Position numbers and translations under genes: made by a program. This document shows, in pieces, positions 1 through 57,411 of a stretch of 64,000 nucleotides of DNA. The DNA lies in contig NC_088201.1 of NCBI RefSeq assembly GCF_037126465.1, positions 70,702,879 through 70,766,878 of the forward strand, read 5' to 3'. This stretch comes from Ornithodoros turicata (taxonomy: Eukaryota > Arthropoda > Arachnida > Ixodida > Argasidae). The notes beneath the pieces were generated by a model that saw only the letters and a program-made list of their open reading frames with translations, did not search any database and was not told the origin of the DNA. Within the stretch, counting starts at the first letter, position 1, and each line of letters starts with the position of its first letter.

Positions 1-179
1 TAGTGACGTTTATAAAACTCTGCTGCTTCAATTTCTCCTTCCAAAGTTGCAATTTTGGTTTCTTGCAAACAGGCAACGTCCACTTTTTTCTCTAGCAACA
101 AATTCAATACACACTGCTTTCGAAAACTCGACACTAAACTTACTACGTTCAGTGTAGCAATTACAAAAGAGCTGCGCAT
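1..179 (-). CDS. LINE A ORF2, N-terminus of the APE endonuclease (partial)
   Basis: The ATG at 179-177 lies 90 bp past the ORF1 stop. About 59 codons remain before the window edge. The opening VIATLNV and the later CLQETKI are the first two conserved motifs of apurinic-like LINE endonucleases (the N and the catalytic E region). The matching ORF2 start in LINE D is at 13723. No ORF2 break is visible in the part present. Confidence 0.75.
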   Translation of the reverse strand, partial: MRSSFVIATLNVVSLVSSFRKQCVLNLLLEKKVDVACLQETKIATLEGEIEAAEFYKRH

Positions 180-268
180 GTTATTTATGTGCCCTCTTCC
201 TTTGTTTTCTGCCCGTCTGTTTTACTATTTTCTCTGCTTATCCCTTCCCTATACCTGTCTCTGGTGTA

Positions 269-1405
269 TTACGGCACTGTCGGCGTTGCAACAAATTTCC
301 TTCTCTTGCTTTGCACTATTTTCCAGCTTCTTTCTGCCATTGGCTCCTCCCTTGGCCTCCGCTTTTCACCGGTGTCTTCTTCCATACGATCTCCACTGGT
401 TAAAATCTTCAACCCTGCCTCCTCATCTATCCTTCCGTCATGCTTTGGAGGCCTTCCAATTTCACCTTCCTGGTTGTCTTCTACGCTTGTCGTACCTCCC
501 GCCGCCTCTTCTGCCAAACCGCCGTCGTCTGCTTTCGTGGGGATCTCTCCAGGAATGGGATCGGTGCCATCGCTTCTGCTATCCGCCAGATCTTCTCTTT
601 CTGCTTCCACAGCTTCCTCATGATCCATTGGTATTCCTTCTAAGATGTACTCTCCTGAAGCTCTTGTCATGCTGGCGTAGGTCTTAACACAATCAACCAT
701 CTCGTGGCCTACTCGGCCACACCCAGTACACCGCGGGGCGTTACACAGCCTCCTGACATGTCCTTTTTGGCGGCAACGCAGACATATCGGCGCCCTGCCT
801 TCCACCGTAACAAGCACTTGACTGCCATTAATCCTTGCTTGGTGAGGAACACTTTCAACAGTCACTCCCGGGTCCAGTTTGAGCGATAAAAGCCTTGACG
901 TCGTCTCCACTTGCTCCATTCCTTCGCTTTTCCATTTCAAGCGGTTTAACTCTTTCACTTCGCCATACACTTTGAAGAAACTTTTAATCGTCTCGTCAGC
1001 GACATGAAAACGCACCCAGTGCAGTCGAATCTTGACTAATTTCTCCCTGGGGTCCAAAATAAGGCATCGTCTTCCCTTCACGTTTAAGTCTTTCATTTCC
1101 AGCAACACGGCTCTTGCTTCTTTATTTTTTAGCGTTATTATCCAGCAATGATTAAACTGATACGGACCCAAACATGCCAGGTCCTCACCTTTGATAACCT
1201 TGAGAAGAGACACCTTGAAATCTTCCATTCTGTATGGCCTCCCTCTTAAATCGGCGTGTAGCACCAATGTATCCTCATTCAGCACGCTGGACGCAAAAAC
1301 AGGCAGCAAAGTCTTGTATTCTTCATCCATACGACCACCAAACACCTGCTCAGCCTGGCTCTCACCAGCCATATTCCTTGCTCCGTCGGAGCTCATGTCG
1401 TGCAC
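269..1405 (-). CDS. LINE A ORF1, nucleic-acid-binding protein with two CCHC zinc knuckles
   Basis: This is an open frame of 378 codons. Methionines at 1405 and 1396 are both possible starts; the second (MSSDG) aligns with the start of ORF1 in LINE D (MSSAG). The N-terminal half resembles an RRM-like LINE ORF1 fold (LHWVRFHVADETIKSFF). Near residues 206-240 are two knuckles, CLRCRQKGHVRRLC and CTGCGRVGHEMVDC, which would bind element RNA. The C-terminal third is acidic, then basic (KRRK). No stop or frameshift is seen, so this copy could be recent. The protein is expected to act as an RNP chaperone with the ORF2 product; that is family knowledge, not visible here. Confidence 0.8.
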   Translation of the reverse strand: MHDMSSDGARNMAGESQAEQVFGGRMDEEYKTLLPVFASSVLNEDTLVLHADLRGRPYRMEDFKVSLLKVIKGEDLACLGPYQFNHCWIITLKNKEARAVLLEMKDLNVKGRRCLILDPREKLVKIRLHWVRFHVADETIKSFFKVYGEVKELNRLKWKSEGMEQVETTSRLLSLKLDPGVTVESVPHQARINGSQVLVTVEGRAPICLRCRQKGHVRRLCNAPRCTGCGRVGHEMVDCVKTYASMTRASGEYILEGIPMDHEEAVEAEREDLADSRSDGTDPIPGEIPTKADDGGLAEEAAGGTTSVEDNQEGEIGRPPKHDGRIDEEAGLKILTSGDRMEEDTGEKRRPREEPMAERSWKIVQSKRRKFVATPTVP

Positions 1406-1436
1406 AACCGTCTCGGACGAAAACCGGAAGTGAACT

Positions 1437-1453
1437 CACTCGGCCATCGTGAC
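1437..1453 (-). pseudogene. 5' fragment of tRNA-Leu cut by LINE A
   Basis: On the minus strand the 17 bases GTCACGATGGCCGAGTG are the acceptor 5' strand and D-arm start of the array tRNA (one change, G to C, at position 5). The rest of the gene is beyond LINE A, outside the window. Confidence 0.8.
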
Positions 1454-1694
1454 AAGAAAAGTCTGTTGTAAAACTCATCAGCAGCTCTATGAGATCATTT
1501 GCGTTAATTACGTCTCCATAATAATGGAACCTTCGTTTCAAAAATCTTCAATCCCTTATGTGAACGATAGCGAGGTGAAGCAGAGACGGCCCTTTGCTGC
1601 TTCGCATGCTGTGTTTCCTACCTGTCACGCTTCGTTTTCTAGCACTGTCTCTTCTGCTTGACGCACGAGTACAACCCGTGTACAAAAACGTGTG

Positions 1695-1778
1695 TGTCAG
1701 AAGTGGGATTCGAACCCACGCCCGGAGAACCGGACTGCGACCTGAACGCAGCGCCTTAGACCATTCGGCCATCCTGAC
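1695..1778 (-). tRNA. tRNA-Leu (CAG)
   Basis: This is an 84-nt type II tRNA. The acceptor GTCAGGA pairs with TTCTGAC, and the discriminator is A. The anticodon arm GCGTTCAGGTCGC exposes CAG. The long variable arm is followed by the T-arm GTGGGTTCGAACCCAC. The D-loop has GAATGG where other copies have GAGTGG. No intron and no encoded CCA are present, as expected for a eukaryotic nuclear gene. Confidence 0.9.
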
Positions 1779-2019
1779 AAGAAAAGTCTCATGTAACACT
1801 CATCAGCAGCTCCATGAGATCATTTGCGTTAATTACGTCTCCATAATAATGGAACCTTCGTTTCAAAAATCTTCAATCCCTTATGTGAACGATAGCGAGG
1901 TGAAGCAGAGACGGCCCTTTGCTGCTTCGCATGCTGTGTTTCCTACCTGTCACGCTTCGTTTTCTACCACTGTCTCTTCTGCTTGACGCACGAGTACAAC
2001 CCGTGTACAAAAACGTGTG

Positions 2020-2103
2020 TGTCAGAAGTGGGATTCGAACCCACGCCCGGAGAACCGGACTGCGACCTGAACGCAGCGCCTTAGACCACTCGGCCATCCT
2101 GAC
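2020..2103 (-). tRNA. tRNA-Leu (CAG)
   Basis: This is a second array copy of 84 nt with all stems intact, and it matches the array consensus. It lies exactly 325 bp from its neighbours. Confidence 0.92.
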
Positions 2104-2344
2104 AAGAAAAGCCTCGTGTAAAACTCATCAGCAGCTCTATGAGATCATTTGCGTTAATTACGTCTCCATAATAATGGAACCTTCGTTTCAAAAATCTTCA
2201 ATCCCTTATGTGAACGATAGCGAGGTGAAGCAGAGACGGCCCTTTGCTGCTTCGCATGCTGTGTTTCCTCCCTGTCACGCTTCGTTTTCTACCACTGTCT
2301 CCTCTGCTTGACGCACGAGTACAACCCGTGTACAAAAACGTGTG

Positions 2345-2428
2345 TGTCAGAAGTGGGATTCGAACCCACGCCCGGAGAACCGGACTGCGACCTGAACGCA
2401 GCGCCTTAGACCACTCGGCCATCCTGAC
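2345..2428 (-). tRNA. tRNA-Leu (CAG)
   Basis: This is a third array copy of 84 nt, identical to the 2020-2103 copy over the tRNA. Box A and box B (GGTTCGAACCC) are intact. Confidence 0.92.
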
Positions 2429-2671
2429 AAGAAAAGTCTCGTGTAAAACTCATCAGCAGCTCTATGAGATCATTTGCGTTAATTACGTCTCCATAATAAT
2501 GGAACCTTCGTTTCAAAAATCTTCAATCCCTTATGTGAACGATAGCGAGGTGAAGCAGAGACGGCCCTTTGCTGCTTCGCATGCTGTGTTTCCTACCTGT
2601 CACGCTTCGTTTTCTACCACTGTCTCTCTTCTGCTTGACGCACGAGTACAACCCGTGTACAAAAACGTGTG

Positions 2672-2755
2672 TGTCAGAAGTGGGATTCGAACCCACGCCC
2701 GGAGAACAGGACTGCGACCTGAACGCAGCGCCTTAGACCACTCGGCCATCCTGAC
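2672..2755 (-). tRNA. tRNA-Leu (CAG), variable-arm variant
   Basis: This is a fourth array copy. One base in the variable arm differs (CCTGTTCT in place of CCGGTTCT on the tRNA strand). The cloverleaf is otherwise intact, so it may still function. Confidence 0.88.
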
Positions 2756-2991
2756 AAGGAAAGTCTCGTCTAAAACTCATCAGCAGCTCTATGAGATCAT
2801 TTGCGTTAATTACGTCTCCATAATAATGGAACCTTCGTTTCAAAAATCTTCAATCCCTTATGGGAACGATAGCGAGGTGAAGCAGAGACGGCCCTTTGCT
2901 GCTTCGCATGCTGTGTACCTGTCCCGCTTCGTTTTCTACCACTGTCTCTTCTGCTTGACGCACGAGTACAACCCGTGTACAAAAACGTGTG

Positions 2992-3075
2992 TGTCAGAAG
3001 TGGGATCCGAACCCACGCCCGGAGAACCGGACTGCGACCTGAACGCAGCGCCTTATACCACTCGGCCATCCTGAC
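2992..3075 (-). tRNA. tRNA-Leu (CAG), probably decayed, at the 3' end of LINE B
   Basis: This fifth copy has a T-loop change (GTTCGGATCCC, altering box B) and a D-arm change (GGTATAAGG in place of GGTCTAAGG). LINE B's poly(A) tail ends five bases upstream of its 5' end, so its upstream flank is now LINE sequence. It is probably a pseudogene. Confidence 0.7.
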
Positions 3076-3209
3076 AAGGATTTTTTTTTCTTTTCCACAT
3101 TTTATTAACAAAACACACAAGTGCACACAACTACAGGTACGTCACACGGTCGCAACGCCGTGGGTCATTACAAAACGTCTAAAGAGGAAACTGAAGACCT
3201 TTTGAATTT

Positions 3210-6200
3210 GTACATACGATTTTACAAGTACGTAAGGGCATCAGACAATGTTTCTAACCAATCTGGCAGCTCTAAACATCGCATAAGGCACAGCTTAAGT
3301 TGAGATATTTCTATCTTAAAGTATTTCATAGGAGGCATTAACGGTTCTTCGTTCCTGTCAGCCATACGAAGTTTCCACAGACAGTACAAGGCTATAAGCA
3401 TGACAATATCGTACCTGACTGTTTCCCTCGGGTGTAATGGGAGAAACCATATATGGTGTGTGGGTTAAGCCGAAGTCGAGTTTTGAAAACTTTATACTGG
3501 AGATCGTCCCAGAATAACTGGGCTTCTGTGCAGTCTAAGAAAAGGTGATCATGCGTTTCAGGAACTTTGCAGAACCTGCAGTCTGCCGACCAGGGCACGT
3601 ATATGCCCTTCTGCGCGAGCCATGCCTTGACAGGTAGTGTTGACGTATGAAGTTTGTAAAAGAATGTCTTCATGTTTGGTTTGATTGGCATCCTTTGGAC
3701 TCGAACCAAAACATCCCTGCCTGGCCAAGTGGGTGGAATATCTCGATAGACAGGCACAGGGAACAATGTATCGATCAAGTGGGCCGCCAGCGTTTTCTTG
3801 TTGACAGACAAGAGGTATTCAGGGGTAAACCTGGCTTTCAAAAACAGCATGCACTCAACGACCTCCTTGAAAAAGCCTGTTAACCGCATCGTTCCCTCTG
3901 TGAACGTGACGTGTAACTCCGGGATGTAATTATATGTAAGGATGCGTTTTACTCCCTCGAGAACTGGATGCAGCTCCTCACGAATGAACCAGAGTCTCAT
4001 GACCAGTTGTTTGACAAAGAGGTGCTGTAGGCTGAGGCCTCCATCACGAAGTTTTCGAAAAAGATAGTCGCGACGCATCCTCTCAAATGTAGAGCACCAG
4101 ATTGTGGTGGCAAAAACCCTGTGACAGGCGTGCACTAGTTTGCGCGGGCATTGCAAGACTTGCAAAAGGTAAACCAGTTTAGCAGCTAGAAACACGTTGC
4201 AGTCGCTCGCTGAAAAATTGAAAGGTCTTTCTTCCTCCAGATGAAAGCGTGTTTCCTTATGTTGTCGAGCCTCTGGGACCACATTCTACTCGGGTTCCTG
4301 GTTTCTTGCAAAAGGACACCAAGATAACGAAGGTTTTGTTCCTGCCACGGAATTCCGCAAAAAGCTCCAGGTGTTGTCGCCCAGTGGCCGCACCAAACGC
4401 CTAAGGACTTGTCTTTGTTTACACGCGCTCCAGACGCTTGGCCAAACAAATCAACTTGTTCCATGACATTCACTACGCTAGGTTTGTCCTTGACAAGGAA
4501 TGCAAGATCATCAGCATATGCGGCCACCTTGATCACAGTACCGGCCAGTTCGAACCCGTGGATATCATTCAGACGGATGACTCGCCGACACAGCGGCTCC
4601 AGGTACAAGTCAAAGAGCAGTGGTGACAGGGGACAGCCCTGTCGAACCGAGGATCGCAGCATTATCGGTGCGGCAAGAGTCTTGTTAATGATGAGGCTCG
4701 TGGCAACTTGCTCGTAACAAAGCTTGATGCGGCCGACAAAGCGAGCTCCCACGTTGACGTATTCCAGCAACGCAAACAAATATGTGTGACATACGCGGTC
4801 AAAAGCCTTAGAAAGGTCCAGCTGCAACATGGCCACATGGTCCCCCTCGTACCGACACCAATCCAGAATGGTACGCACCACATGGATATTCGTCAGTATA
4901 GTTCTACCCCTTATTCCGCACGTTTGGTGATCACCTATCAATTGAGGTAACACAAGTTGTAGTCGAGCAGCCATAACTTTGGCGTATATTTTGTAATCGA
5001 CATTGCATAGGGTAATTGGCCTGTAATCAGTAACCTTTGCCGTCAAACCTTCTGCAACTTTTTTAGGAACCAGCACGGTGTGCGATCGCCGGAAACTGCC
5101 GGAAAAAATCCCGTTTTCTTCAGCCTCGGCGTATACATCCAGCAAAATAGGCACGAGATAAGCGGAAAACCTCTTGTAGAACTCGGCACATAGACCGTCC
5201 GGTCCAGGGGAACGATTTAACTTCAGTGATGCAATTGCGTCGCTGATTTCTTGTTCTGTGAGCGGCGACGCTAACACTTCTTTATCCGGTTCCCCGAGCT
5301 TAGGCAGTTCAGAGAGGAAAGCCTGGATACAACCCTGATTGGCAGTGATAGCTGCCGTCCCAAACAAACTTGTGTAATATTGCACAAAATGGGGCTTTAT
5401 GTCCTCGAGGTCAGTCACCACTTTTCCCTCACTTTCCAAGCACGTGATGAGCCGACCACCCGTGTGCTTACGCTCCTCTGCGATGCTGCTTTTCGTGGGA
5501 ACTTCACCAGCAAGGAATCGTTTGGATCTGGACCTAACTCTTGCGCCTTCGTACCTGTTATGGTCGAGGAGTTCTAGACGAAGCTTAATGTCGCTTATCT
5601 CCTCTAAATACGATCCAGGGTTTCCTGCATCCAACTGCAGTAGAGCTTGGTACGCCTCTTTCAACTTGTTCTCTTCATACATGCGTTGATATGACAATAC
5701 GTTACTTCGCTCAATTGCAAATGATCTGACCTCCTGCTTAAAGTACTCCCATTGCGCCGCCCCACATCTCGTGTCAGAGCTGATGTTGGCCAGCCTATCC
5801 ACAACATATTCCACAAACGGCACATCATCAAGGAGCATTGCATTCATTTTCCACAACTTCCAAGACCTTGAATCGCCCACGCCGCGAGCTCGATTTCCGA
5901 CGGTGACGATCACGAGGCAGTGATCAGTAAAGTACACCGGATGAACTTCATACCGAGACACATCTTTGCGCTGATTTTGGCCTCGGGAAAAATATATCCG
6001 ATCCAACCTTGCATGTGAGCTGCCTTGAAAGTGTGTGTTAGAGCACTGCACGGGCCGACTTTTCCGGGCCCGACCCGGCCCGGGCGCATCGAAAAATGGC
6101 CCGGCCCGACCCGGGCCCGGACCTTCATATTTTTAGGCGGCCCGGCCCGGCCCGGCCCGGTGACCCAGTGACTAGAGCCCGGCCCGGCCCGGCGTCTAAG

Positions 6201-7345
6201 CAAATAGAGCCCGGCCCGGCCCGGCCCGGTGACCCGGCGAGTAGATCCCGGCCTAGTATTTCCAGCCGCGACGTACGCGTTTCTGGCGATTATCAAACAA
6301 ATTTATAAGTAAATTTATAAGGAGAGAAGACAAACTTACAAGTGATGGCGGTTTAACACCGTAACCGCACGAGACCAAATTAAATCCAGAACGCACGGGG
6401 CGTTATCGTTACACTGTCAAGATTTTGCGGAGATAGAGCATGCTGTCGACAAACTGCTTCTCCCAGTCCCTATCCCTCTCACCAAGCTTTGCCAAAGTGA
6501 TTGTGAAATATGTGAGGAGTGAGGAGCAATGTAAAGTGGCTTGGAGAATGTTCTAGGGGGTCGAATCATATGCATAATGCAGTACCCTTTGCTTGTCTTT
6601 GCAAAATATGCACAGGAATGACGCAAGCGTATGATGATATGAACTAATGCATCTCCAATGTGCGGAATTAGCTGCGTGGCCCGGCCGGGCCTGACTCTCG
6701 GGAACATATTTGTCGGCCCGGGCCCGGCCCGGCCCGCATTGGTGGCGTATTTTAACGGCCCGGGCCCGGCCCGGCCCGCGGTGCTGGCGTATTTTGTCGG
6801 CCCGGGCTCGGCCCGGCCCGGAGCACACAGCCAATAACAAGCCCAGCCCGGCCCGCGGGCCGGGTCGGGCCCGGGCCGGGTCGGGGGCCCGGGCCCGTGC
6901 AGTGCTCTAGTGTGTGTACTTGATGGTTGCATGCGTACTGAGCTCAGCAGCGTCCCTAAAACCGTATGCCTCTACTATGCGTTTAAGGCACTCAGCACTA
7001 GGGTCTTCTATCCCCCGGGGCGTGCTGCGGTCATTCGCTGACAGAACACAATTAAAATCCCCTAAGAAAACCATGTTACAATTTGCGTTGAAGTATTGCT
7101 CCGATGATTCAAAGAACGCACACCGCTGATTTACGTCGTTAGGCGCATAAACAACTAAAATCCTCCAAAGCTCTCCTTCAATGAGGGCATCAAGCATAGC
7201 TGCCCTACCCTCACTGTCTACCGCATGGTACACACAAGTATAGGAAAGACGCTTTCGTACGAAAAGCATAACTCCAGCCGAGTGACCAACAGCGCGGCTT
7301 ACAACAACGTCATACTGATCCATGAAATATTGGGACAGCATTTTT
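3210..7345 (-). pseudogene. LINE B ORF2 (APE, RT, C-terminal Cys motif), broken
   Basis: The frame opens in the APE domain (7345-6918), with VVSRAVGHSAG and the catalytic LGDFNC. It is cut by the hAT-like insert exactly where IKYTH meets THFQGSSH, then resumes with the APE motif SHARLDRIYFS at ~6025. The RT domain follows: RSPGPDGLCAEFYK, DYRPITLCNVDYKIYAK, LDLSKAFDRV, RQGCPLSPLLF and the catalytic YADD at ~4515. A frameshift near 4190-4280 moves the reading frame into 4282-3392, which ends with the Cys motif CRFC...HDHLFLDC. A further frameshift lies near 3392-3410, after which DIVMLIALYCLWKLRMADRNEEP is still recognisable. It is not functional. Confidence 0.88.
6039..6909. mobile_element. 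hAT-like non-autonomous element with CCCGG-rich subterminal repeats
   Basis: This 871-bp element has perfect 18-bp terminal inverted repeats TAGAGCACTGCACGGGCC and an 8-bp duplication GTGTGTGT at 6031-6038 and 6910-6917, which is the hAT length. About 200 bp next to each end are packed with CCCGG/GGCCC repeats. The centre (6260-6660) has ordinary composition and no transposase motif. The open frames across the GC-rich ends are a by-product of the repeats. It lies in the APE domain of LINE B and so is younger than LINE B. Confidence 0.85.
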
Positions 7346-7590
7346 CCTGACAAGGAAAGTCTGGTGTAAAAATCATCAGCAGCTCTATGAGATCATTTGC
7401 GTTAGTTACGTCTCCATAATAATGGAACATTTGTTCCAAAAATCTTCTAAACCCTATGTGAACGATATCGAGGTGAAACGGACACGTGCATTTGCTGCGT
7501 CGCATGCTGCGTTTCCTTCCTGTCACGCTTCCTTTTCTACCACTGTCTCTTCTGCTTGCCGCAAGTGCAACTCGTGAACAAAAACGTGAG

Positions 7591-7670
7591 TGTCAGAAGT
7601 GGGATTCGAATCCACGCCCGGGGAACCGGACTGCGACCTGAACGCAGCGCCTTAGACCACTCGGCCATCC
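7591..7670 (-). pseudogene. tRNA-Leu (CAG) lacking its first four bases
   Basis: The tRNA body is intact from the 3' end to AGGATGGCC, but the first four bases (GTCA) have been replaced by the tail of LINE C (AAAGAAA). The acceptor stem cannot form. Bases 7658-7670 (plus CACTCGGCCATCC) are the left copy of the 13-bp duplication repeated at 14846-14858. Confidence 0.85.
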
Positions 7671-10236
7671 TTTCTTTTTTTTCCACCAGGTAATAACGTT
7701 TATTTATAAACATTAAAATAAGCTATGACTGTACAGTGTTAATGAGTGATGTATGACGAATGAATGATGCACACCGTAGCATCCAAATACACAGGATACA
7801 AAAAAAGTACATGGTACACAACACACAGGTTGCACAGGTCACATACAGAGAGTAAAAATTTACATACACACAGGATAGAAAAAAATGCGTGGTATACAAC
7901 GCACAGGTTAAACACGTCACACACAGAGAGAAATAATTTACACAGATGCTCTAACAACGGTGGTGCTTCCAAATGCTGCATGCAGCATAGCTTCAGCTGC
8001 GTTATTTCTACTTTAAAATACTGCATGGGCGACGCCAATGGCTCTTCATTTCTGTCTGCCATACGCAGCTTCCACAAGCAATACGTAGCTATCAGCATGA
8101 TAATATCGTAGCGTATATCTTCATTCGGATGTAAAGGTAGGAATCTGATTGTATGTGGGTTCAGAGAGAGGCGTTTATTCAGTACTTTAATCTGTATGTC
8201 GTCCCAGAAAAACTGTGCTTCCGTACAATCAAGAAAGATGTGGTCAACGGTTTCAGGGACTTTGCATAACCTGCAGTTGGCAGACCATGGAACATACATG
8301 CCTTTCTGTTCCAACCATGCTTTCACAGAGAGCGTTGATGTATGAAGCTTGAAAAAGAATGTTTTCATATTCGGCTTTATGTGCATGCGTTTGACCCTGT
8401 GTAAAACGTCCGCTCCAGGCCACTCAGACGGAATTTGCCTGTAAATTGGCACGGGAAACAAGGTATCTATCAAATGGGCTGCCAACACTTTCTTTGAAAC
8501 CGAAAAGATTTAATCTGGGGTAAACCTGACTTTTAGAAAGTTGATGCAGTCCACGACCTCCTGATAAAACCCTGTCAACTGCAAGCCTTGCTCGTGGAAG
8601 CCAACATATATATCAGGCATATAGTTGTAGGCTACTGCTCTCTTCACGGCGTCTAATAGGGGGTGCACAGGCTGCCTATAAAACCAGAGTCTCATAATTA
8701 GCTGCTTTATAAACAAGTGCTGTAGACCTAAACCTCCATCCTTGACTTTCTTGAAAAGGTTTTCTCGGCGCATTCTTTCAAATGTTGAGCACCATATCGT
8801 GGTGGCAAACACGCGATGGCATGCATGTACGATTTTACGGGAACACTGAAGTACTTGCAAAATGTATACCATTTTCGCCACCAAAAACACATTGCAAACT
8901 GAAGCCCGCTGGAATATTGACAGTTCGTTGCCTCTCCAAGTGAATGCATGCTTTTTCATCTTATCAATTCTTTCTGACCACATCCTGTTTGTGTTTCTAC
9001 TTGCGTGTAATGGCACCCCCAGGTAGTCCGGGTTGCTCGTCTGCCACTTGATATCGCAAAATATTTCTGGAGTTGAACCCCAAAGCCCACACCATACTCG
9101 TAAAGACTTCTCTTTGTTTACTTGAGCTCCAGAAGCTGCACAAAACAAGTCGACCTGCTCCATTATTTTTTCGACACTTCTCTTATCTTTCACCAAGAAC
9201 GCAACGTCATCTGCATACGCCACAACTTTAACTTCAACACCACCCAGCTGAAAGCCATGAACGTCATACTGACAGATTACGTGTCTACACAACGGTTCTA
9301 AGTACAAATCGAAAAGTAAAGGCGCTAAAGGACAACCTTGCCGGACCGAAGCTCCAAGCGCAATCGGGGTGGCAATGAATCTATTCACCACAAGGCTCGT
9401 TGCAACTAGTTTGTAGCACAACTGGATGCGATTTACAAACCTATCTCCCATGTTGACATGACGCAGCAATGCGAACAGGTATGTATGACAAACTCTATCG
9501 AAAGCTTTCGAAAGATCCAACTGTAGCATCGCCACATGCCCACCCTCATATCTGCACCAGTCCAACACCGTACGAACTAGGTGTATATTGGTTTGTATTC
9601 TTCTATTCTTGATGACACACGTTTGATGTTCCCCTACTAGATGGGGCAACACAAATTGCAGACGTGCAGCAAGCACTTTAGCGAAAATTTTGTAGTGAAC
9701 ATTGCAGAGGGTAATAGGTCTATAGTCAGTCACTTGCGGAGTGGACCCCTCAGCTATTTTCTTCGGGATTAATACAGTGTGTGACCTCCGAAAACTAAGA
9801 GAAAAAATGCCCTTTTCCTCCGCTTCTGCATAAAGATTAAGTAAAACAGGCGTGAGCAGCTCTACGTACTTCTTGTAGAACTCTGCTCCCAAGCCATCCG
9901 GCCCGGGAGTGCGGTTGAAAGCTAACTCTTTGATTGCACACTGTATTTCTGTTGCTGCAATGTCCGACCCTAACATTTCTTTCTCCTCCTCACTTAGCTT
10001 TGGCATGGTTGCAATGTACCTATTTATCAAACCCTCATCGACTTTTCGTGCTGTTTGTCCAAACAAACTCTTATAGTAATCGACGAATATCTCCCTCACT
10101 TTCTCAGAATCACCCACTACTTTACCCCCGTGCTCTAAACTTTCAATGCGCCTACTACGCGTCTGCTTCCTCTCTATTGCCAAATAGCTTTTGTTTGGCG
10201 TTTCATCCGGCAAATATCTCTTTGTTCGACATCTAA
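7671..10236 (-). mobile_element. LINE C, Tx1/L1-like, 5'-truncated, 3' end in a tRNA-Leu gene
   Basis: The A-rich tail begins at 7671 directly against the tRNA body. The 5' truncation lies near 10230-10248, where the sequence passes into the 3' tail of LINE D without any tRNA sequence between them. C and D together (7671-14845) are bracketed by one pair of 13-bp duplications. The 3' untranslated region (7790-7930) carries a short internal duplication that lengthens the ORF2 C-terminus. Confidence 0.85.
7739..10231 (-). pseudogene. LINE C ORF2 (RT and C-terminal domain), one nonsense codon
   Basis: A single frame runs from the truncated 5' end (VRCRTKRYLPDETP) through RTPGPDGLGAEFYKKY, DYRPITLCNVHYKIFAK, LDLSKAFDRV, RQGCPLAPLLF and the catalytic YADD (~9225). 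A TAA at about 8507-8509, after VRFTPD, interrupts the frame, which continues in phase (from 8488) with the Cys motif CRLCKVPETVDHIFLDC and KLRMADRNEEP. Only that stop breaks the remaining part. The APE domain and ORF1 are missing. Confidence 0.88.
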
Positions 10237-10312
10237 CTCTTTCTTTCTAAGTTTTTTAACTTTTATTTCATTCATATCAAAATAACACTTCTATGATGAT
10301 GACAATGTGAAT

Positions 10313-13300
10313 TTATACAAGGCGCGGGATATGAACACAGGGAAGAAGCTTTTCACAGAAAAGCGTGAGCCACGGTGGAGTGTATCCGCGATACTTCGCG
10401 GCCAGTTTCATGTTCGACAGTTCTTTTCGGAGAAAGACCATCGGTGGACTTAGCGGCTCTTCGTGCCTGTCCAGCATGCGCACCTTCCACAAAGAGTACA
10501 TTGCTGTAACACAGAGGACATCAAACCTAGGACCGTTACGGTCAATTAATGGCAGGAACCGAATGGTGTGTGGGTTCAGTGTGAAGGTAACGCCCAATGC
10601 TTGACTTAAGTCATCCCACAGGAATGCCGCCTCAGTGCAGTCAATAAAAATATGATCAATAGTTTCCGCCACCTTGCAAAACCTGCAACTGGTACTCCAA
10701 GGTACAAAGAAACCTTTTCTTCCAAGCCATGTTTTGACAGGCAGCGTACCTGTATGCACTTTAAAGAAGAAAGTTTTAAGATTGGGTCTGATGGGCATTC
10801 TCTTTACTCTACATAAAATATCTTTTCCGGGCCATTCCAGCGATAAGGCTCGATAAATTGGAACAGGGAACAAAGTGTCAATAAGGTCCCAATATAAGCG
10901 TGATCTATGCACTGAATACACATAATCGATTGAGAATCGAACTAAGCAAAACTTAACACTCTCGACAACCTCTCTGCAAAAACCATTCAATGAAACATGT
11001 CTGGTTTTTGTTGCCACTGTTATGTATGGTAAGTGTTCTAATGCTATGCATTGTTTTACATGCTCCAGTAACGCGTGCGTTTTTGTTCTCTAGGATACAA
11101 TTCTCATGACAAGCTGCTTCACAAACATATGTGGTAGCCCTAAACCACCATCCTGCACCGCTTTAAACAAGTTGTCACGCGTCATCGATTCAAAAGAAGA
11201 ATTCCACACAAACGTTGCAAAAGTCCAGTGGATTCTTTGAATATTGGCACGCGAACACTGCAGTACATGCAAGAGGTACACAATCCGTGCCAACATGAAA
11301 ACACTGCATATACTACTACGCTGGAAGACAGAACACACACTTTGCTTCAACACAGAGGTTTGCTTGCGGAGCTTGCCGGCAACTTGAGACCACATAGAAT
11401 TTGTATTGTTACTGTCTCCCAGTGGAGCTCCGAGGTACATCCCTGGCACAGTATCCCACGATATGCCTGCATACGTAGTTGGGGTGCTGCCCCATTGACC
11501 TCCCCATATCCCAAGGGATTTTTTCCTATTGATACGCGCACCAGATATGCGACTGAAGTCCTGAATAATGCTAAACAATGCATTAACACTTTGCTTGTTC
11601 TCCACCACAACAGCAATATCGTCCGCGAACGCTAGCACTTTTACTTCTGCATTGTCCGTTGTAAATCCTCTAATATTTTTACAACCCACAATAGCCTTGC
11701 AAAGGGGTTCTAGGTATACGGCAAACAGTAATGGAGATAGGGGGCATCCCTGCCTTACCGAGGATCTCAAGGGTATTGGGCCTGAACAATGACCATTTAA
11801 AATTTGCTTAGTTGACACGTTCTGATAACATAATTTTAGTCTTCTCATAAACATTTCACCAAACCCTGCTTCTTTCAATGTACAAAACAGATAAGTATGA
11901 TCCATTCTGTCGAACGCTTGAGATAAGTCTATTTGAACTACACCTACTTGATCCCCATCTGTCCTTGCAATATCTAGGATAGTGCGTAGCACGTGAATGT
12001 TCGTTTGGATGTTCCGGCCCTTTATCGCACACACCTGATGCTCTCCAACAACGGTCTTTATCACTGTTTGAATCCTTGCAGCAAGTACTTTCGCGTACAC
12101 TTTGTAATCAACATTACAAAGTGTTATTGGGCGGTAGTCTGTTACTCCCGGTGACTTCCCTGCCGTTATCTTCTTGGGAATTAACACAGTGTGAGTTCGA
12201 TGAAAGGAAGGCGAAAAGGTTCCATTTTCTTCAGCTTCCAGGAACACATTCCAAAGAATAGACGCCATATGTTCGCTGAACTTGTGATAAAATTCGCCAC
12301 TGATGCCATCTGGTCCTGGTGTCTTATTCTTGGATAGTGATCGAATGGCACTGAGTACTTCGTCCCTGGTGATAGGTCCTTCAAGTGATTGACGTTGGCC
12401 CTCAGTGAGGGCAGGCAGTTGAAAAGTTTTTAATTTGTCCTCCGCATTTATTTGCGTTGCGTGTGCCGTGCCTATGAGATCCTTATAGTGGTGTACAAAA
12501 ATTCGTTCTATTTCACCTTTCGCCTGTTATTAAATTTCCTTCATGTTCTATAGCCTCTATCTTCTTAAGTCTTCCTTGTTGCCTCTCTTTATAAACATAC
12601 GTCTTGCGGGGGATTTCGTCCGGTGCAAACAGGCGCATTCTCGACCTGATCCGAGCACCTTCATATTTCCTTTCGTTAAGGAGATTTAGTTCCAATTTAA
12701 TTTCTTCCATCTCTCGTTGAAATTCTCCTGGCTTTAGAGATTCCAGCTTAACCACTTCATTCATCCGCTTCTTCAATTCTTCCTCGCGCCCTTTACGTGC
12801 ATATGAGATTACATTGGATCTTTCCACAGCGAAAGCTCGCAGTTTCAGCTTGAAGGCTTCCCATGCTGAAGACCAAGAAGTCCCTGCAGTCACAATGCCC
12901 ACAATTCCGTTCTTTACGAAATTTACGAATCCGTCGTCTTCCAAAAGTCTACAATTCAGCTTCCACAATTGCCATCGGTTACTTCCTGTCCCTGAGGGGT
13001 TCCGTACTTCCCCTAAAGTGGCTAGAACCATGCAGTGGTCACTAAAGTAAACCGGGTGTGTTTCATATCTGGTTACGGTCGTTCTTCGTTCCCACTTCAT
13101 ATATATTCGGTCCAATCTAGAATGTGAGCCATTCTGGAAGTGCGTAAAGAGGGTGTCCTTATTTTCAACGTCATAGAAAACATCTCTCATGTTATGGCCC
13201 TCCAAAATGCCCGCTAGCGTGAGAGTGCTTGCGTCGACTTGGATGCGATTACCTTCCTTCCTTCAGAGTCCTTTAGCGTACAGTTAAAATCCCCTAATAA

Positions 13301-13723
13301 CATGATATTTTCGGTACTGTTGATGAGTTGCGCCATCTCTTCGAAGAACACTTTCCTTTCGCGCACATCATTAGGTGCATAAAGGCATACAATCCTCCAA
13401 GCACACCGGTCGATTTGAATATCAAGACAAGCTATTCTCCCTGCATTATCAGTAATGTACGATACGGGGATAAGACGTTCGCTTTTCTTCAACAATAGGA
13501 TGCACCCGGCTGAATGTCCCACGGCGTGGCTGACTACTACGTCGTAGTCTTTATGAAACAAGTAATTGACCAATCTTGTGGTTTCTTCTTCTGTGCTTAT
13601 TTTAGTTTCTTGAATAGCAATATATGAATATTGTTCCAAGAAACGCTTCAGTTGGTACTGTTTTTTCCTTGCATTCAACCCCCTTACATTTAGTGTAGCC
13701 ACGATTATATTATTTGCACTCAT
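10313..13723 (-). pseudogene. LINE D ORF2 (APE, RT, C-terminal Cys domain), broken
   Basis: It starts MSANNIIVATLNVRGLNA 63 bp after ORF1. APE motifs are IQETK, LGDFNC and (after a frameshift near 13210) SHSRLDRIYMKW. Further breaks lie near 12515-12270. The RT has TDYRPITLCNVDYKVYAK, IDLSQAFDRM, RQGCPLSPLLF and AFADDIAVVV, so the catalytic box is FADD rather than YADD. A break between 11090 and 11017 precedes the C-terminal part, with the Cys motif CRFCKVAETIDHIFIDC and the end at 10313. Domain order is complete. Confidence 0.88.
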
Positions 13724-13785
13724 CTAATTGTGAAGAAAGCAGCCGACTTACTCGTTCCACACTTGTATCACATTTTACCCGTCGG

Positions 13786-14806
13786 CTATTTAGCAGTCAA
13801 AAAGTCCATATCCTCAAGTCTCGATGCTCCCACTTCGTCCAGCTGCGGCATACTGGCAACTTGACCTTCTGTTTTTCTTTTCTTCCTTTCTTTCACAGCC
13901 ACCATACCCATGTTTTCTGTTTCTTGAGAACCGCCAGCTAGCATACCCTTCGACCCTTCTGGTGAACCAGAAGAGATAACCTTGGGGCTGTACACTTCGG
14001 TCGAACCTTCGTTCGATTTTTTCTGCGGTGTTTCAGCGCTTCCGACGCCTAATTGTTGCTGCTCGCCCTTTTTATCTGTCTCCGTCAATTGACTTGTTCT
14101 TTCTGTTTCCTCCACGTCCATTATGTGCTCTTGAATCTGCTCTGGTTGCGGTTGCCTCACTCTCGATGCATATGTGGCTACGCATTCCTCATCTTCGCGC
14201 CCGTACTTCCTGCACGTCCTACACCAAGGAGTGTGACACTGCCTTCGGATGTGTCCTAGCTGCTTGCATTTCAAGCACAAGGGTGGTCTGCCACTGACAG
14301 CCAGCAACACTCGGGATCCGGCAATTTGCATCAGGTGGGGCAATCCATCTACGGTTCCACCGTCTTTCAGTCGGAGCGTTATCAATCTGGTTGTTGATTC
14401 TACTCCTTCAAAAAACGAACTCTTCCACTTCTCTGTTATTATTTCCGTTACGTGTCCATATGTTGTCATTGCTTTGCGAATTTCTTCATCGCTGGTATTA
14501 CCAGAGACCTAGTGCAACTTGATACATACATCCCTTTTGTTCGGGTCGATGATGACACAGCGCTTTTCTTTCACTACCAGTTCTTTTCTCGACAGCAGTC
14601 TCTCCTTCTCCGCTCCGTTGTGAAACCGTATCATCCAAATATGGTTATACTGAAACACGCCGAACGTAGCCACGTCTTCTTTCTTTACTATGTCTTCCAG
14701 TGCTTCACCGAAATTATCCACTTATAGTCAAGTATCCTGATGAAGTTCCTTTGTTCTCTGTCACCCGGCTAGGCCTAGCCGTTAGCCCTACTCCAGCAGA
14801 GCTCAT
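13786..14806 (-). pseudogene. LINE D ORF1 with two zinc knuckles, broken
   Basis: It begins MSSAGVGL at 14806, matching LINE A ORF1. A frameshift near 14720 separates the start from VDNFGEALEDIVKKED, and a nonsense codon near 14511 (KLH-stop-VSGNTSDEE) replaces a Trp present in LINE A (RLHWV). Downstream the frame is clean, with zinc knuckles CLKCKQLGHIRRQC and CRTCRKYGREDEEC and an acidic/basic tail. Two lesions make it non-functional. Confidence 0.85.
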
Positions 14807-14845
14807 GTTTACGTGTCCGACACTGTTGAAGTCCGGAAGCAGAAT

Positions 14846-14862
14846 CACTCGGCCATCCTGAC
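14846..14862 (-). pseudogene. 5' fragment of tRNA-Leu cut by LINE D
   Basis: The minus strand reads GTCAGGATGGCCGAGTG and then LINE D. Its last 13 bases duplicate 7658-7670. The flank at 14863-14937 carries a partial, rearranged array unit, so the spacing across the C+D insert is ~70 bp longer than one unit. Confidence 0.85.
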
Positions 14863-15172
14863 AGGGAAATCCATTTGTAAAACTCATCAGTACCTCTCCG
14901 AGATCATTTGCGAGCGATAGCGATGTGAACGACAAGGAAAGTCTGGTGTAAAACTCATCAGCAGCTCTATGAGATCATTTGCGTTAATTACGTCTCCATA
15001 ATAATGGAACCTTCGTTTCAAAAATCTTCAATCCCTTATGTGAACGATAGCGAGGCGAAGCAGAGACGGCCCTTTGCTGCTTCGCATGCTGCGTTTCCTT
15101 CCTGTCACGCTTCCTTTTCTACCACTGTCTCTTCTGCTTGCCGCAAGTGCAACTCGTGAACAAAAACACGAG

Positions 15173-15256
15173 TGTCAGAAGTGGGATTCGAACCCACGCC
15201 CGGAGAACCGGACTGCGACCTGAACGCAGCGCCTTAGACCACTCGGCCATCCTGAC
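15173..15256 (-). tRNA. tRNA-Leu (CAG)
   Basis: This is an intact 84-nt copy between LINE D and LINE E. All stems pair and the anticodon is CAG. The surrounding unit belongs to the diverged array subfamily. Confidence 0.9.
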
Positions 15257-15497
15257 AGGGGAAGCTGTGTGTAAAACTCATCAGTACCTCTCCGAGATCA
15301 TTTGCGTTAGTTATGTCTCCGTAATATTGGAACATTCGTTTCAAAAATCTCAGAAACCCTCTGTGAACGATATCGAGGTGAAGCGGACACGTGCATTTGC
15401 TCCTTCGCATGCTGCGTTTCCTTCATGTCACACTTCGTTTTATACCACTGTCTCGTCTGCTTGACGCAAGAGTGCAACCTGTGAGCAAAAACGTGAG

Positions 15498-15569
15498 TGT
15501 CAGAAGTGGGATTCGAACCCACGCCCGAAGAACCGGACTGCGACCTGAACGCAGCGCCTTAGACCACTC
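15498..15569 (-). pseudogene. tRNA-Leu (CAG), 3' 72 nt, split by LINE E
   Basis: The tRNA is cut in the D-arm: GAGTGGTCT onward lies here, and the missing GTCAGGATGGCC lies at 17212-17223 beyond LINE E. The 17 bp AGCGCCTTAGACCACTC at 15553-15569 recur at 17195-17211 as the target duplication. The variable arm has one change (CGAAGAA for CGGAGAA on the plus strand). Confidence 0.88.
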
Positions 15570-17194
15570 TTTTTTCTTTTTCTTTTTTTTTTTACCAATT
15601 GAGCTTTTATTGTGTTAAAAGTTGATTATTTACAGATCACGTCACGACAACGCTTTGCTGGCGCCTACTTTGGCACCACGTCATCCTTGAGTGTAAACCT
15701 TCACGAGATGTACCAAAGCAAGGTGTCACCGGCACTGACTGGGTGTATGGAGAAGTATACAGGATGTACGGCAACTTCAGCAGGACATACAGTGCACATG
15801 TAACATCTACAAAAGTCACACGGCTTGTGACTAAAACAAGGAAGAATAACCAACATATACGATAAACAGTCACGTCTGACAGTGAATGTGGGCCCACATC
15901 AGAAAATCGTTACTAGCTGTTGAAGCAATCTAAACTGAACACAAAGACAGCATGATTTCAGTCCTCGCATCACCTCCACCGCATATAGTGATCTAGGTGT
16001 CCTCGTACAGCGACCAAGTTAGACCGCGTAGTTGACTATGCAAGAACCATCACTACCTCAGGAAGGATTGTTGCATGCACTCTCAAAGAACATTGTCCAA
16101 AACACCTCTTACGGTACTGGCAGCATGTTGTGCAGCGCATACGAAGCACTTTGATGAAACGACACTGGCTTTAGATATTTTTCTAGCTCCTTGGGGAAAG
16201 CGTTCCTCAATGTATCCCGCGTATTCGTTGTTCTTCGCAACAGCTCACCGTCTGGCGCACCTTGCTCTTTGAGGGCACTGACCGACCAATCCAATTTCGC
16301 AGCAAGTAAAACTAGAGGAATCCGTGGTGGTGTCTTGCAGTCGGCAACATCCATCCTGTGTTGCCACAAAGCATGTAGCCCACAGATATAGAGGAGCCTC
16401 AAGGAAGGACCCTTGTCCTCACGGACGTCCAAGAACTTCAAACGGATCCAAGTGATGTCTTCTTCGATGTCAAACACTGCCCTGAGAAATTCCCAAAACT
16501 GTATTGCATTCCTGCATCCGATGAAGGTGTGGATCAAGGTTTCTTGCCCTGCGAAGCACATGTCACAGGTACTGCCGCGTGGTACCGGGAAGCCTTTACC
16601 TGCGAGCCAGGTTTTCACTGGTAGTGTCTCCGTGTGAAACAACGTGAAGATCCTTTGCGTACCAGTAGGAACAGGTAGTGTCTTCATCACTTTCAGAACC
16701 TTGTCATTCCCTCGTCCTGGGTATAGACTTCGATATAATGGCACCGGAGATAAGATGCTGATAAGGTCCCAGTACAATGTGCGCCTCTTAACTGTGATTA
16801 GGTAGTCCCAGGAGAACCTGCTCGTCAGGAATGTCACGGATTCAGCCACTTCCTTGTAGAATGTAAGGGTCCTCTTGAGCATAGGTGACATCCCTGTCGT
16901 TACTGTGAAGGCTGGCATGAAAACGGAACCCAGCACTTGTAGGGCCCATTCCAAGACATTGTGCTTTCTCTGGCGAAAGTAGAAAAAACGGTGAACGACT
17001 ACTTTAACTGCCACGTTGATCAGTCCGAATCCGCCGTTCTCAACACTATGAAAGATGTTCGTTCTTCTCATTCTTTCCAATGGCGAGTTCCAGATAAAAG
17101 TAGCAAAAATCCTATGTACTCGGTGCGCGCTGGAAGCAGGGCATGGGGTAACCTGTGCACGGTAGAAGAAAATGGGGTACACAGAAGTATTACA
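15570..17194 (-). mobile_element. LINE E, Tx1/L1-like, strongly 5'-truncated, inside a tRNA-Leu D-arm
   Basis: The 1625-bp 3' portion starts with an A-rich tail at 15570 and ends at 17194, flanked by a perfect 17-bp duplication made wholly of tRNA sequence. Removing it restores a complete tRNA gene and a 323-bp unit spacing. Its protein is clearly divergent from LINEs B-D, so it represents a separate lineage using the same target. Confidence 0.9.
16109..17193 (-). CDS. LINE E ORF2, C-terminal part (truncated at its N-terminus)
   Basis: A continuous frame of ~360 codons enters at the truncation and has no stop before 16109. It aligns with the post-RT region of LINES B-D (FATFIWNSPLERMRRTNIF, NGGFGL) and ends with the Cys motif CDMCFAGQETLIHTFIGC followed by an FW. 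The RT catalytic core is absent, so the fragment cannot transpose. The lack of stops suggests a young insertion. Confidence 0.8.
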
Positions 17195-17223
17195 AGCGCC
17201 TTAGACCACTCGGCCATCCTGAC
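17195..17223 (-). pseudogene. tRNA-Leu 5' part on the far side of LINE E
   Basis: The minus strand reads GTCAGGATGGCC then the 17-bp duplication GAGTGGTCTAAGGCGCT, then LINE E. It is the complement of the 15498-15569 fragment. Confidence 0.85.
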
Positions 17224-17462
17224 AGGGGAAGCCGTGTGTAAAACTCATCAGTACCTCTCCGAGATCATTTGCGTTAGTTATGTCTCCGTAATATTGGAGC
17301 ATTCGTTTCAAAAATCTCCGAAACCCTATGTGAACGATATCGAGGTGAAGCGGACACGTGCATTTGCTCCTTCGCATGCTGCTTTTCCTTCCTGTCACGC
17401 TTCCTTTTCTACCACTGTTTCTTTTGCTTGCCGCAAGTGCAACCCGTGAACAAAAACGGGAG

Positions 17463-17546
17463 TGTCAGAAGTGGGATTCGAACCCACGCCCGGAGAACCG
17501 GACTGCGACCTGAACGCAGCGCCTTGGACCACTGGGCCATCCTGAC
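17463..17546 (-). pseudogene. tRNA-Leu (CAG), degenerate D-arm
   Basis: It is full length (84 nt) with the CAG anticodon, but the D-arm reads GGCCCAGTGGTCCAAGG in place of GGCCGAGTGGTCTAAGG. LINE F's poly(A) tail lies directly against its first base, so upstream control sequence is replaced. Confidence 0.7.
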
Positions 17547-17834
17547 TTTTTTTTTTTTGTCCAGATATTCTTTATTGATCACGGTATATACATCTCAAAC
17601 AGTATTAAAACAGTTAAAAGATTGAACCCCGTCTCGGAGCCACTTTAGAACACAAGAGTTGCAGCCACTCGGGCACGTCACCTGCGTGCTCAGCAAACCG
17701 CTTTGTTTGCAGCAATTCCTCCGCTAAATACACCATTGGCGGCTTCCTATGTTCTTCGTTCCTACCAGCTATTACAACTTTCCATAAGCTGAACATTGCC
17801 AACACACACAATATATCATACCTGGGTCCATGCT
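17547..17834 (-). mobile_element. LINE F, 3' end of a Tx1/L1-like element abutting a tRNA-Leu gene
   Basis: The T run at 17547 is the poly(A) tail. The frame GPRYDILCVLAMFSLWKVVIAGRNEEH matches the C-terminus of LINE D (FDVLCVTAMYSLWKVRMLDRHEEP). Only ~290 bp survive. Its 5' end meets the 3' end of LINE G at ~17834 with no spacer, and no target duplication could be found. Confidence 0.8.
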
Positions 17835-19292
17835 GAATAGAATATTTATTTCACCCGTCTACGAAATGTTCAAAATATCACAAAGCCTGACTGCCGAAAA
17901 ATCTCAGACCAGTGTGCCACACGGCCGCCGTCCCCCAGAAACAAAACGATGTCATTTACCTTCTCCAGTTCCAGTATACAAAAAATGCAGGGTACGTACT
18001 ATAAGTGCATTATCTTGTCGTTGCCTAACTAAGAGAAGTACACTATGTATAGATGAGCCCCGTTAGTCTTACACGTCCGTTGTGAAGAGCAACGTGGCGG
18101 CAGGACCACTGTCGCAAAACTCCTGCTCACCCAACAAAAACAGTCTGTGTTCTAAGTAGTCTGTCACCAGTTGAGTCACCATGGAGAGTCTAGGGTGTAT
18201 CAGGCGGTTTCTTCTATTCTGAGCTACGGCTGTGCAGCGAAATTTCCAAAGCGTAAAAGCTGTCATTATCATGATTAGCTGTTCGAACCTCATCCTCATC
18301 TGTTGCATAGGCCGATACCGAATGGAAAAGCGGCGATACACGAGTGTCCACAGAGTCTTTGCTGTGACACACTCTCGTAGCACATAGTCACTATTCTCCT
18401 CGGCACCGCAGTTGGAACATGAGGGACTGCTGGGAAGACCCCATCTGGCCAGTTTGTCTTTCGTCGGCAATATGTGCCAACTTGCTTCCCAGAAAAAATC
18501 GCTCACTTCACTGTTCAGACCAGTGGGCTGCCTTCCCTTCTTGAACCTGCCCAAGTGTGCGTCACCTTGTTGGATGCTCTTTTTCTGGAACGATTGAATA
18601 TCTGGACTACCTTTTTGTAAATCAGTGGTGGTTCTTCAACCGCCGGATATCTGTTTCCGAGTCCACGCGGCACTAGTACTCTCCTTGATGGTCCTAGCCA
18701 GAACAGTACCAGCGGCCGAGCAGGGGAGTCAACTCGTTCCAGAATGTGCAGTACCCCTTTCATGGCAAAGATAGAGGAATACATCTCGATACACGGAAAG
18801 CTCCAGCCACCTTCTGACATAGGCCATCGCAAGATGTCCCGTGGTAACCAGTGTTTCCTTCCGTTCCAGAAGAAACGAAATACAAGAGAGTTTATTTTAG
18901 CTGTGATTCTGGCTGGGGGATACATGATGCAGGCAGCATACCACAACTTGCTACAGAACACAGACTTGATCAAGAACACCCGTTCTTGGAAAGAGAAGTT
19001 GAACTGCTGGGCCACTTCAATTTGTCCAGCAAGTTTCTCCAAGATCACGATCCAGTTTCGCTCGCTGGCTCCGGCTTGTGTGAAAAGCACGCCGAGGATG
19101 TTTATTTCTGGGGTGTATGATATGTCTGGAGGAAGTGGCTCTCTGAAACCCGCCACCGTAAGCGCCTTTGACTTTCGTAAATTCAGCTGGGCTCCCGAGA
19201 GTTTTCCATACTGCCGAAAAATCTCGAACATGTGTGTTACACTGTCGCTGTCCCTTAGAAATAAAACGATGTCATCCGCATAGGCTGATATT
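17835..19292 (-). mobile_element. LINE G, second Tx1-like family, 5'-truncated
   Basis: A 3' UTR with AATAAATATTC close to the end (~17835-17860) precedes coding sequence. The 5' truncation falls just before the RT catalytic box (ISAYADDIVLF at ~19290-19260). The sequence differs strongly from LINES A-F. No tRNA sequence is found at its 5' side. Confidence 0.75.
18069..19292 (-). pseudogene. LINE G ORF2, C-terminal half
   Basis: It opens at YADD and continues through MFEIFRQYGKLSGAQLN, ILGVLFT, FFWNGRKHWLPRDIL and EGGWSFP. A frameshift near 18540 moves the reading frame into 18554-18069, which ends with the Cys-rich motif CSNCGAEENSDYVLREC and LWTLVYRRF. It was assigned to a Tx1-type LINE by motif order. 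It is non-functional through truncation. Confidence 0.75.
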
Positions 19293-22984: not shown

Positions 22985-23410
22985 GTAATGAAGTGTGACA
23001 CTTCATTGCCTTCAATGCCTCCCGCCAGACGAAGGTTTCCTACTGTCGTCTCTCTTCGTTTGAAGGGCAGTTCCCGAACCAGACGCTGAACTACTTGATG
23101 CTCGCTTTTTCATATACTCGTCCACGAGTTTTCCTTTGACGTACTCCAGCGTCAGGTCGTCGTCAGGCCGTGCGTCCAGGGCTGTCACGAGCGCCTCGTA
23201 GCTCTCCGGGAGACCACTGAGCAAAAGAGCCGCTACCTGGAAATCCGTGGTCTCCTGTCCGATCCCTCTCAGCCGCTCGGCTAACTCCAAGGTACGCCTT
23301 ATATAGCCTTGCATGTCTTCGTCCTCCGCTAACTTGGATTGGTAGAGCTTCCTCACCAGGTAGAGCTTATTACTAAGGTTTGCTCGCTCATGAACCTTGC
23401 GTAGCTCTTC
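22985..23410 (-). pseudogene. Ty1/copia gag fragment (UBN2-type)
   Basis: About 130 codons from HERANLSNKLYLVRKLYQSK through EDEDMQGYIRRTLELAERL, LLSGLPESYEALVTALDARP and LTLEYVKGKLVDEYMKK match the conserved core of copia gag. The frame ends in a Ser/Gly-rich tail (23012) with no zinc knuckle, protease or RT after it. At its N-terminal side it is fused in frame to LINE sequence near 23410. Confidence 0.8.
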
Positions 23411-55017: not shown

Positions 55018-55058
55018 TTTAACTGAATAGTGATAGTAACGAAAATCTCCAACCAAGT

Positions 55059-57364: not shown

Positions 57365-57411
57365 GATATTCTGTCCCTCCGCAGTGTGGACGAGACGTTT
57401 GATGCCGAATT

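Follow-up and report, generated by a model that had tools for sequence, protein, structure and literature searches.

In a 64,000-nucleotide (nt) stretch of the genome of the soft tick Ornithodoros turicata (contig NC_088201.1, positions 70,702,879 to 70,766,878; hereafter the window), a tandem array of tRNA-Leu(CAG) genes is broken up by long interspersed nuclear elements (LINEs), and we consider it likely that a clade of L1-group LINEs in ticks uses these genes as its insertion target. The array (1437-17546) is interrupted by five insertions, designated A, B, C+D, E, and F, all five of which lie on the minus strand, in the orientation of the tRNA genes. An initial annotation had proposed independent, same-orientation insertions of divergent LINEs in the 5' region of tRNA-Leu. 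Analysis of junctions, target site duplications (TSDs), and empty sites confirmed the location and orientation of the five insertions; the elements were found to contain reverse transcriptase (RT), apurinic/apyrimidinic endonuclease (APE)-type endonuclease, and zf-RVT domains; and the independence of the events was borne out by three different TSDs and by the unlikeness of the elements.

The tRNA-Leu(CAG) array

Eight tRNA-Leu(CAG) genes were detected by ARAGORN on the minus strand between 1694 and 17546, and all eight were confirmed as tRNA by Rfam. Tandem Repeats Finder (TRF) identified a 325-bp unit in 5.1 tandem copies at 1437-3078, and blastn recovered additional full or partial units at 7345-7671, 14846-15569, and 17195-17546. 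The units are ~84-99% identical to one another, with the tRNA making up 26% of each. Five of the genes occupy the unbroken stretch, and the other three sit between LINEs together with three tRNA fragments (Table 1). Upstream of D, at 14913-14930, the array is rearranged, a short stretch linking two unit fragments in place of the full spacer.

Table 1 Positions of the tRNA-Leu(CAG) array, the inserted LINEs, and their TSDs in the window
Feature	Position	Strand	Remarks
Unbroken tRNA-Leu(CAG) array, unit ~325 bp	1437..3080	minus	ARAGORN, TRF, blastn, Rfam
Five tRNA-Leu genes of the unbroken stretch	1694-1778, 2019-2103, 2344-2428, 2671-2755, 2991-3075	minus	
First 17 nt of one more tRNA, beside element A	1437-1453	minus	
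Element A	1..1436	minus	5' end right after tRNA nt 17 (1437/1436); 3' end beyond the window
Element B	3081..7344	minus	5'-truncated within the endonuclease domain (~codon 52); A-rich tail
TSD of B, upstream copy	7345..7356	minus	tccttgtcagga, 12 bp; other copy 3069-3080
tRNA-Leu directly 3' of C	7590..7674	minus	Element tail replaces its nt 1-3; ARAGORN, blastn, Rfam
Element C	7672..10246	minus	5'-truncated (match to relative P0002 begins at codon 362); RT, zf-RVT; A-rich tail
Element D	10247..14845	minus	5' end after tRNA nt 17; apparently full-length; boundary with C good to a few bases
TSD of C+D, upstream copy	14846..14859	minus	aggatggccgagtg, tRNA nt 4-17; other copy 7658-7671
Array segment separating D from E	14846..15569	minus	ARAGORN, blastn
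tRNA-Leu in the D-E segment	15172-15256	minus	
tRNA-Leu remnant in the D-E segment, nt 13-85	15497-15569	minus	
tRNA-Leu nt 1-17 in the D-E segment	14846-14862	minus	
Element E	15570..17194	minus	5' truncation near codon 806, leaving just the C-terminal portion of ORF2 (frame 16109-17200); A-rich tail
TSD of E, upstream copy	17195..17211	minus	gagtggtctaaggcgct, tRNA nt 13-29; other copy 15553-15569
tRNA-Leu directly 3' of F	17462..17546	minus	ARAGORN, Rfam
Element F	17547..17860	minus	Oligo(A) stops exactly at tRNA nt 1; 5' boundary uncertain, no tRNA flank

Junctions, duplications, and empty sites

The initial annotation had placed the junctions between ~5 bp upstream of the tRNA and ~30 bp into it, and they were read here as spanning -5 to nt 29. 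Four 3' junctions are readable, at tRNA positions -5 (B), 1 (F), 4/5 (C), and 13 (E), as are four 5' junctions, located after tRNA nt 7 (B), 17 (A), 17 (D), and 29 (E); the 5' junctions of A and D are thus identical. Three insertions carry perfect TSDs, all of them consisting of tRNA sequence or its immediate flank: 12 bp for B (first given as 11 bp, a value corrected here), 13 or 14 bp for C+D, whose duplication reads (a)ggatggccgagtg, and 17 bp for E. A and F show one junction each. The A box of this tRNA-Leu corresponds by consensus to nt 8-18; the TSDs of C+D and E thus include part of it, and the TSD of B stops at its edge.

Empty sites were reconstructed by removing each element together with one TSD copy and aligning the joined flanks to array units within 1450-3060. 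The empty site of B aligned without gaps over its full length (288/288 nt) at 92.7% identity to an array unit, and that of E did likewise (283/283 nt) at 88.3%; some alignments to other array units carry 2-4 gap positions. The empty site of C+D aligned without gaps for 203/286 nt, spanning the junction, its far 5' flank being rearranged.

If insertion were uniform along the 325-bp unit, the probability of finding four 3' junctions inside 18 bp would be 7e-4, and that of finding four 5' junctions inside 22 bp would be 1.3e-3; the common strand of four events adds a further factor of 1/8. These values are indicative only, as the spans were set after seeing the data, the two junctions of any event depend on each other, and a single locus is considered. 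On the plus strand, the nick sites read ..AAGGA, ..CATCC(T), ..CACTC, and ..CTGAC. Unspecific L1 elements prefer T-rich nick sites; the sites found here are not T-rich and are thus unlike those of unspecific L1.

Type and phylogeny of the LINEs

Judged from their sequences, the tick elements are two-open reading frame (ORF), APE-type non-long terminal repeat (non-LTR) retrotransposons of the L1 group in its broad sense. Domain searches identified RVT_1 and zf-RVT in B, C, and D, with the zf-RVT match of E falling under the curated cut-off (22.2 vs 27.5 bits). Exo_endo_phos, the APE-type endonuclease, was matched in D (5e-7) and weakly in B (0.006), which is truncated in this domain. Among related proteins, P0002, P0004, and P0043 carry an endonuclease match above the cut-off; the full-length relatives P0002 and P0004 combine endonuclease, RT, and zf-RVT, and P0004 also matches L1 endonuclease structures. 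The RT of D matched human LINE-1 ORF2p structures with an E value of 4.5e-62 and is nearer to them than to R2 by sequence. A-rich or oligo(A) 3' tails are present in B, C, D, E, and F. With P0094 as a query, 40 proteins were retrieved, with no Tx1 among the names shown.

The inserted elements are divergent. Over the longest aligned piece, identity to the relative P0002 is 67% for C, 65% for B, 49% for D, and 33% for E; the 65 codons of F are 49% identical to P0004, and F is too short for placement in a tree. Across 75% of its length, the RT frame of B (4186-6132, minus strand) shares 96% identity with the O. turicata gene product LOC135385841, its next named relatives being Ixodes proteins (among the 120 of 334 matches listed). 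The ORF1 part of the LOC135385841 product is at most 51% identical to anything in the window, which is therefore probably not the locus of that gene.

A quick RT tree was computed with 65 proteins selected from 157, 67 of 68 rows passing (P0134 was dropped). In this tree, whose outgroup does not form one side of a branch, a nine-row group (support 99) contains B, C, and D and is nested in a 29-row clade (99) comprising the three window rows, six named rows (one from Ornithodoros and five from Ixodes; all ticks), and 20 unnamed rows. Because E lacks RT, it was placed with a tree of C-terminal sequences. In a careful version of 49 rows, rooted by midpoint only and computed after seven long-branch or distant rows (P0010, P0057, P0073, P0079, P0082, P0083, and P0087) had been dropped, E groups with seven rows (support 100/99), of which five are named Ixodes proteins, and the other 41 rows include B, C, and D. 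Constraining E into the B/C/D group was rejected in the approximately unbiased (AU) test (p-AU 5.4e-6), the tested group having been picked after a quick C-terminal tree had been seen. The branch of E is long (1.17); thus, its exact placement is less sure than its exclusion from B/C/D. The initial annotation had regarded B, C, D, and E as separate lineages. The trees refine this view: B, C, and D, although divergent, belong to a single clade (99), and E is placed on another branch. As E stands apart from B/C/D, one target has been hit across a deep split of a tick LINE clade.

A second locus of this kind is suggested by the O. turicata gene model P0001, in which a B-like ORF2 (residues 64-797, 96%) precedes part of an ORF1 that matches D (51%) and A (42%), as would be expected of an annotation joining two same-sense tandem elements. 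When the ORF1 portion of P0001 was used in a region search for more fusions of this type, only P0001 itself was recovered among 173 candidates. Searches for relatives of B gave 22 pattern matches in genome contigs, none of which was confirmed, and no match in viral contigs. Read-through junctions were sought by scanning 157 proteins for five-residue words translated from tRNA-Leu; five such words occurred in seven proteins, none at a protein end, and were taken as chance matches.

Proposed mechanism and alternatives

Position, common orientation, an A-rich tail, and 12-17 bp TSDs are the traces expected of target-primed reverse transcription by an APE-type LINE, and we interpret the locus as the product of target-primed retrotransposition specific for the A-box end of tRNA-Leu. 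In the proposed mechanism, the APE-type endonuclease, the presumed origin of specificity, would nick the template strand (complementary to the tRNA) between -5 and +13, within ~18 bp around the gene start. The nicked 3' end would then prime reverse transcription of the A-rich tail of the element, and the second strand would be cut 12-17 bp deeper within the tRNA gene, at the A box or next to it, producing a 12-17 bp duplication and an element in the orientation of the tRNA. The spread of nick sites slightly favors recognition of the site through RNA polymerase III (pol III) factors bound to the A box, and the identical 5' junction of A and D favors a precise cut.

Several observations weigh against target specificity of this kind. 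The evidence comes from one locus with five events, and each lineage contributes one 3' junction there; B and C, neighbors in the tree, differ by ~10 bp in their 3' junctions. F lacks a 5' tRNA flank, and the 3' end of A lies outside the window. The quick C-terminal tree (56 rows, from 133 proteins plus four window pieces) did not resolve E. As for other tRNAs as possible targets, the single tRNA-Ala gene of the window, at 61341, carries no such insertion, a sample of one.

Were the LINEs unspecific, an open, transcribed tRNA satellite might simply collect surviving insertions, nucleosome-poor tRNA starts being the easiest to cut. Genes transcribed by pol III are usually nucleosome-poor, the tRNA forms a quarter of the unit, the nicks vary over 18 bp, and a single locus is on view, all of which suits this explanation. 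However, the eight readable junctions are all confined to ~10% of the unit, leaving the remaining spacer and the 3' half without any; satellite density, which the initial annotation had raised as a possible explanation, is thus a poor one on its own. Moreover, openness alone sets no orientation, yet all five events share one, and the other LINE remnants detected in the window by protein comparison (18.1-19.4, 25.1-25.9, and 30.3-32.8 kb) are located outside the array, the first of them adjoining F. We therefore regard unspecific insertion as very unlikely. Still less credible, to the point of near-certain error, is a single ancient insertion that was multiplied by unequal exchange within the array and diverged afterwards. 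Exchange of units does occur in tandem arrays, and the units here are alike; the elements, however, are far less alike than the units (33-67% to one relative), their truncation points differ, and they are flanked by three different TSDs. Copying of one insertion with the array is refuted for B, C+D, and E by their differing TSDs.

Two further explanations keep a targeting step and alter its scope. The target could be any pol III gene start, reached by TFIIIC/TFIIIB tethering as in Dictyostelium TRE5, with tRNA-Leu merely the gene on view. The scatter of nicks from -5 to +13 around the A box, with orientation kept, fits such tethering, and precedents exist in the interaction of the TRE5-A ORF1 protein with TFIIIB (PMC5911963) and in NLTR-A of Dictyostelium purpureum, which inserts 2-6 bp upstream of tRNAs (PMC5006619). 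Against it, A and D, apparently full-length at the 5' end, share exactly the same 5' junction, and the single tRNA-Ala of the window is unhit. On balance, general pol III tethering seems somewhat unlikely. The tick elements might instead be members of the lineage of zebrafish Dewa, a Tx1-clade element, that moved from the tRNA-Leu spacer into the gene. Both have the same tRNA family as target (PMC3706591), and the tick elements are L1-group in the broad sense, but the site of Dewa is given as spacer, and the two were compared by description only. A Dewa origin is accordingly judged unlikely.

Specific use of tRNA-Leu by the tick clade thus remains our preferred explanation, and the target was probably inherited from a common ancestor of both branches. 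A bolder extension, which we hold tentatively and would put somewhat below even, is that a clade older than the split between the Ixodes-containing branch (with E) and the B/C/D branch kept the tRNA-Leu target as its nick site drifted by at most 18 bp. If so, recognition of the gene, probably mediated by the A-box complex, would be distinct from the choice of the precise cleavage position. LINEs with a specific target offer a natural model for inserting DNA at safe multicopy sites, and a clade fixed on one gene with a shifting cut would allow recognition to be separated from cleavage. Such a clade would likewise extend the range of LINEs known to use tRNA genes by an L1-group lineage from arthropods and account for the interruptions of the tRNA-Leu repeats observed here.

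Comparison with known target-specific elements

Dewa, described as inserted in the tRNA-Leu spacer of zebrafish (Kojima and Fujiwara 2004, as cited in PMC3706591), is likewise an animal LINE with tRNA-Leu repeats as target; it differs in being a spacer insertion in a fish, whereas the tick junctions lie between position -5 and nt 29 of the tRNA. The initial annotation, which drew on no search, knew of no described animal lineage targeting the tRNA-Leu D-arm; Dewa, together with the planarian elements below, reduces the novelty of such targeting. LINEs within tRNA genes are also on record for tRNA-Pro, tRNA-Arg, and tRNA-Glu, namely, planarian LIN15_SM and LIN25_SM (Arg, Glu) and NeSL-1_TV (PMC4640811). 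These are NeSL-related and occupy other tRNAs, and, according to the same paper, a restriction-like endonuclease is the type found in target-specific elements that belong to neither the Tx1 nor the R1 clade, in contrast to the APE type of the tick elements. The dictyostelid NLTR-A and TRE5 elements resemble the tick elements in lying beside tRNA starts, the NLTR-A position being close to the junction of B; however, they insert outside the gene, in amoebae, and no one tRNA is singled out in the available excerpts of PMC5006619 and PMC5911963.

Keno and Mutsu are LINEs in multicopy small-RNA genes as well, but in others (U2 and 5S), and Keno has one stated 3' flank, compared with the 18-bp spread among tick lineages. 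Dada-tL of zebrafish inserts inside tRNA-Leu (codon CTG, equivalent to anticodon CAG) but is a DNA transposon, its duplications measure 6-7 bp, and it occupies a different site (GCGTTCA) (PMC3706591); later work on Dada is covered in PMC8869645. The word 'tRNA' is absent from the main text of the Ixodes genome paper (PMC4748124), and no tick LINE at tRNA-Leu was recognizable by title or start of abstract among the matches listed from open-licence PubMed Central literature, Repbase being outside this scope. Within the literature covered, the kind of element is thus already known; what appears to be new is the tick lineage, its site within the gene, and the change in cut position from one lineage to another.

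Individual elements

Every copy that can be judged is broken: B combines a truncation with an interruption and frameshifts, C is 5'-truncated and carries one in-frame stop, D has several frame breaks, and E and F are 3' fragments. In A, of which the 5' part lies in the window, an ORF1 frame (269-1435) with a CCHC-like motif recognized by eye and a weak Pfam match (E 0.78) precedes the endonuclease start of ORF2 at 161-3. D contains ORF1 (weak zinc-knuckle match), endonuclease, RT, and zf-RVT. The first nucleotides of A and D are alike by eye (CTTCCGG near the start in both), and both lead into ORF1; hence, both look full-length at the 5' end. The A-rich tail of D runs straight into the 5'-truncated C, a member of another family (10240-10260), and a single TSD encloses the pair, as would fit one event in which reverse transcription switched from C RNA to the end of D RNA.

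Element B retains RT and zf-RVT, with frame breaks near 4205 and 3455. It is interrupted at 6039-6909 by an 871-bp, partly GC-rich insert with the ends TAGAGCACTGCACGGGC...GCAGTGCTCTA, flanked on both sides by the 8-bp sequence acacacac; by eye, this insert resembles a hAT-type non-autonomous DNA transposon. F consists of ~65 codons near the end of ORF2 (17641-17835) followed by a 3' untranslated region. Just upstream of F, a coding piece of the RT catalytic region from a different neighboring LINE is repeated at 17890-17955 and 19210-19275 (82%), so that the 5' boundary of F may be a rearrangement or chimera.

Other features of the window

The tRNA-Ala(GGC) region (61265-61413) includes an inverted partial self-copy of the gene directly upstream, forming a foldback by eye, and a near-perfect foldback with more than 50 bp per arm was likewise seen by eye at 32985-33105. 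An open frame at 55106-57445 weakly matches reverse transcriptase and GIY-YIG, a combination typical of Penelope-like elements. Non-LINE transposons are also present, as a copia-type gag frame and two transposase-like frames were found (23012-23848, 42317-43585, and 54286-55185). A tandem repeat with a period of ~133 bp extends over 6.4 copies at 59356-60185.

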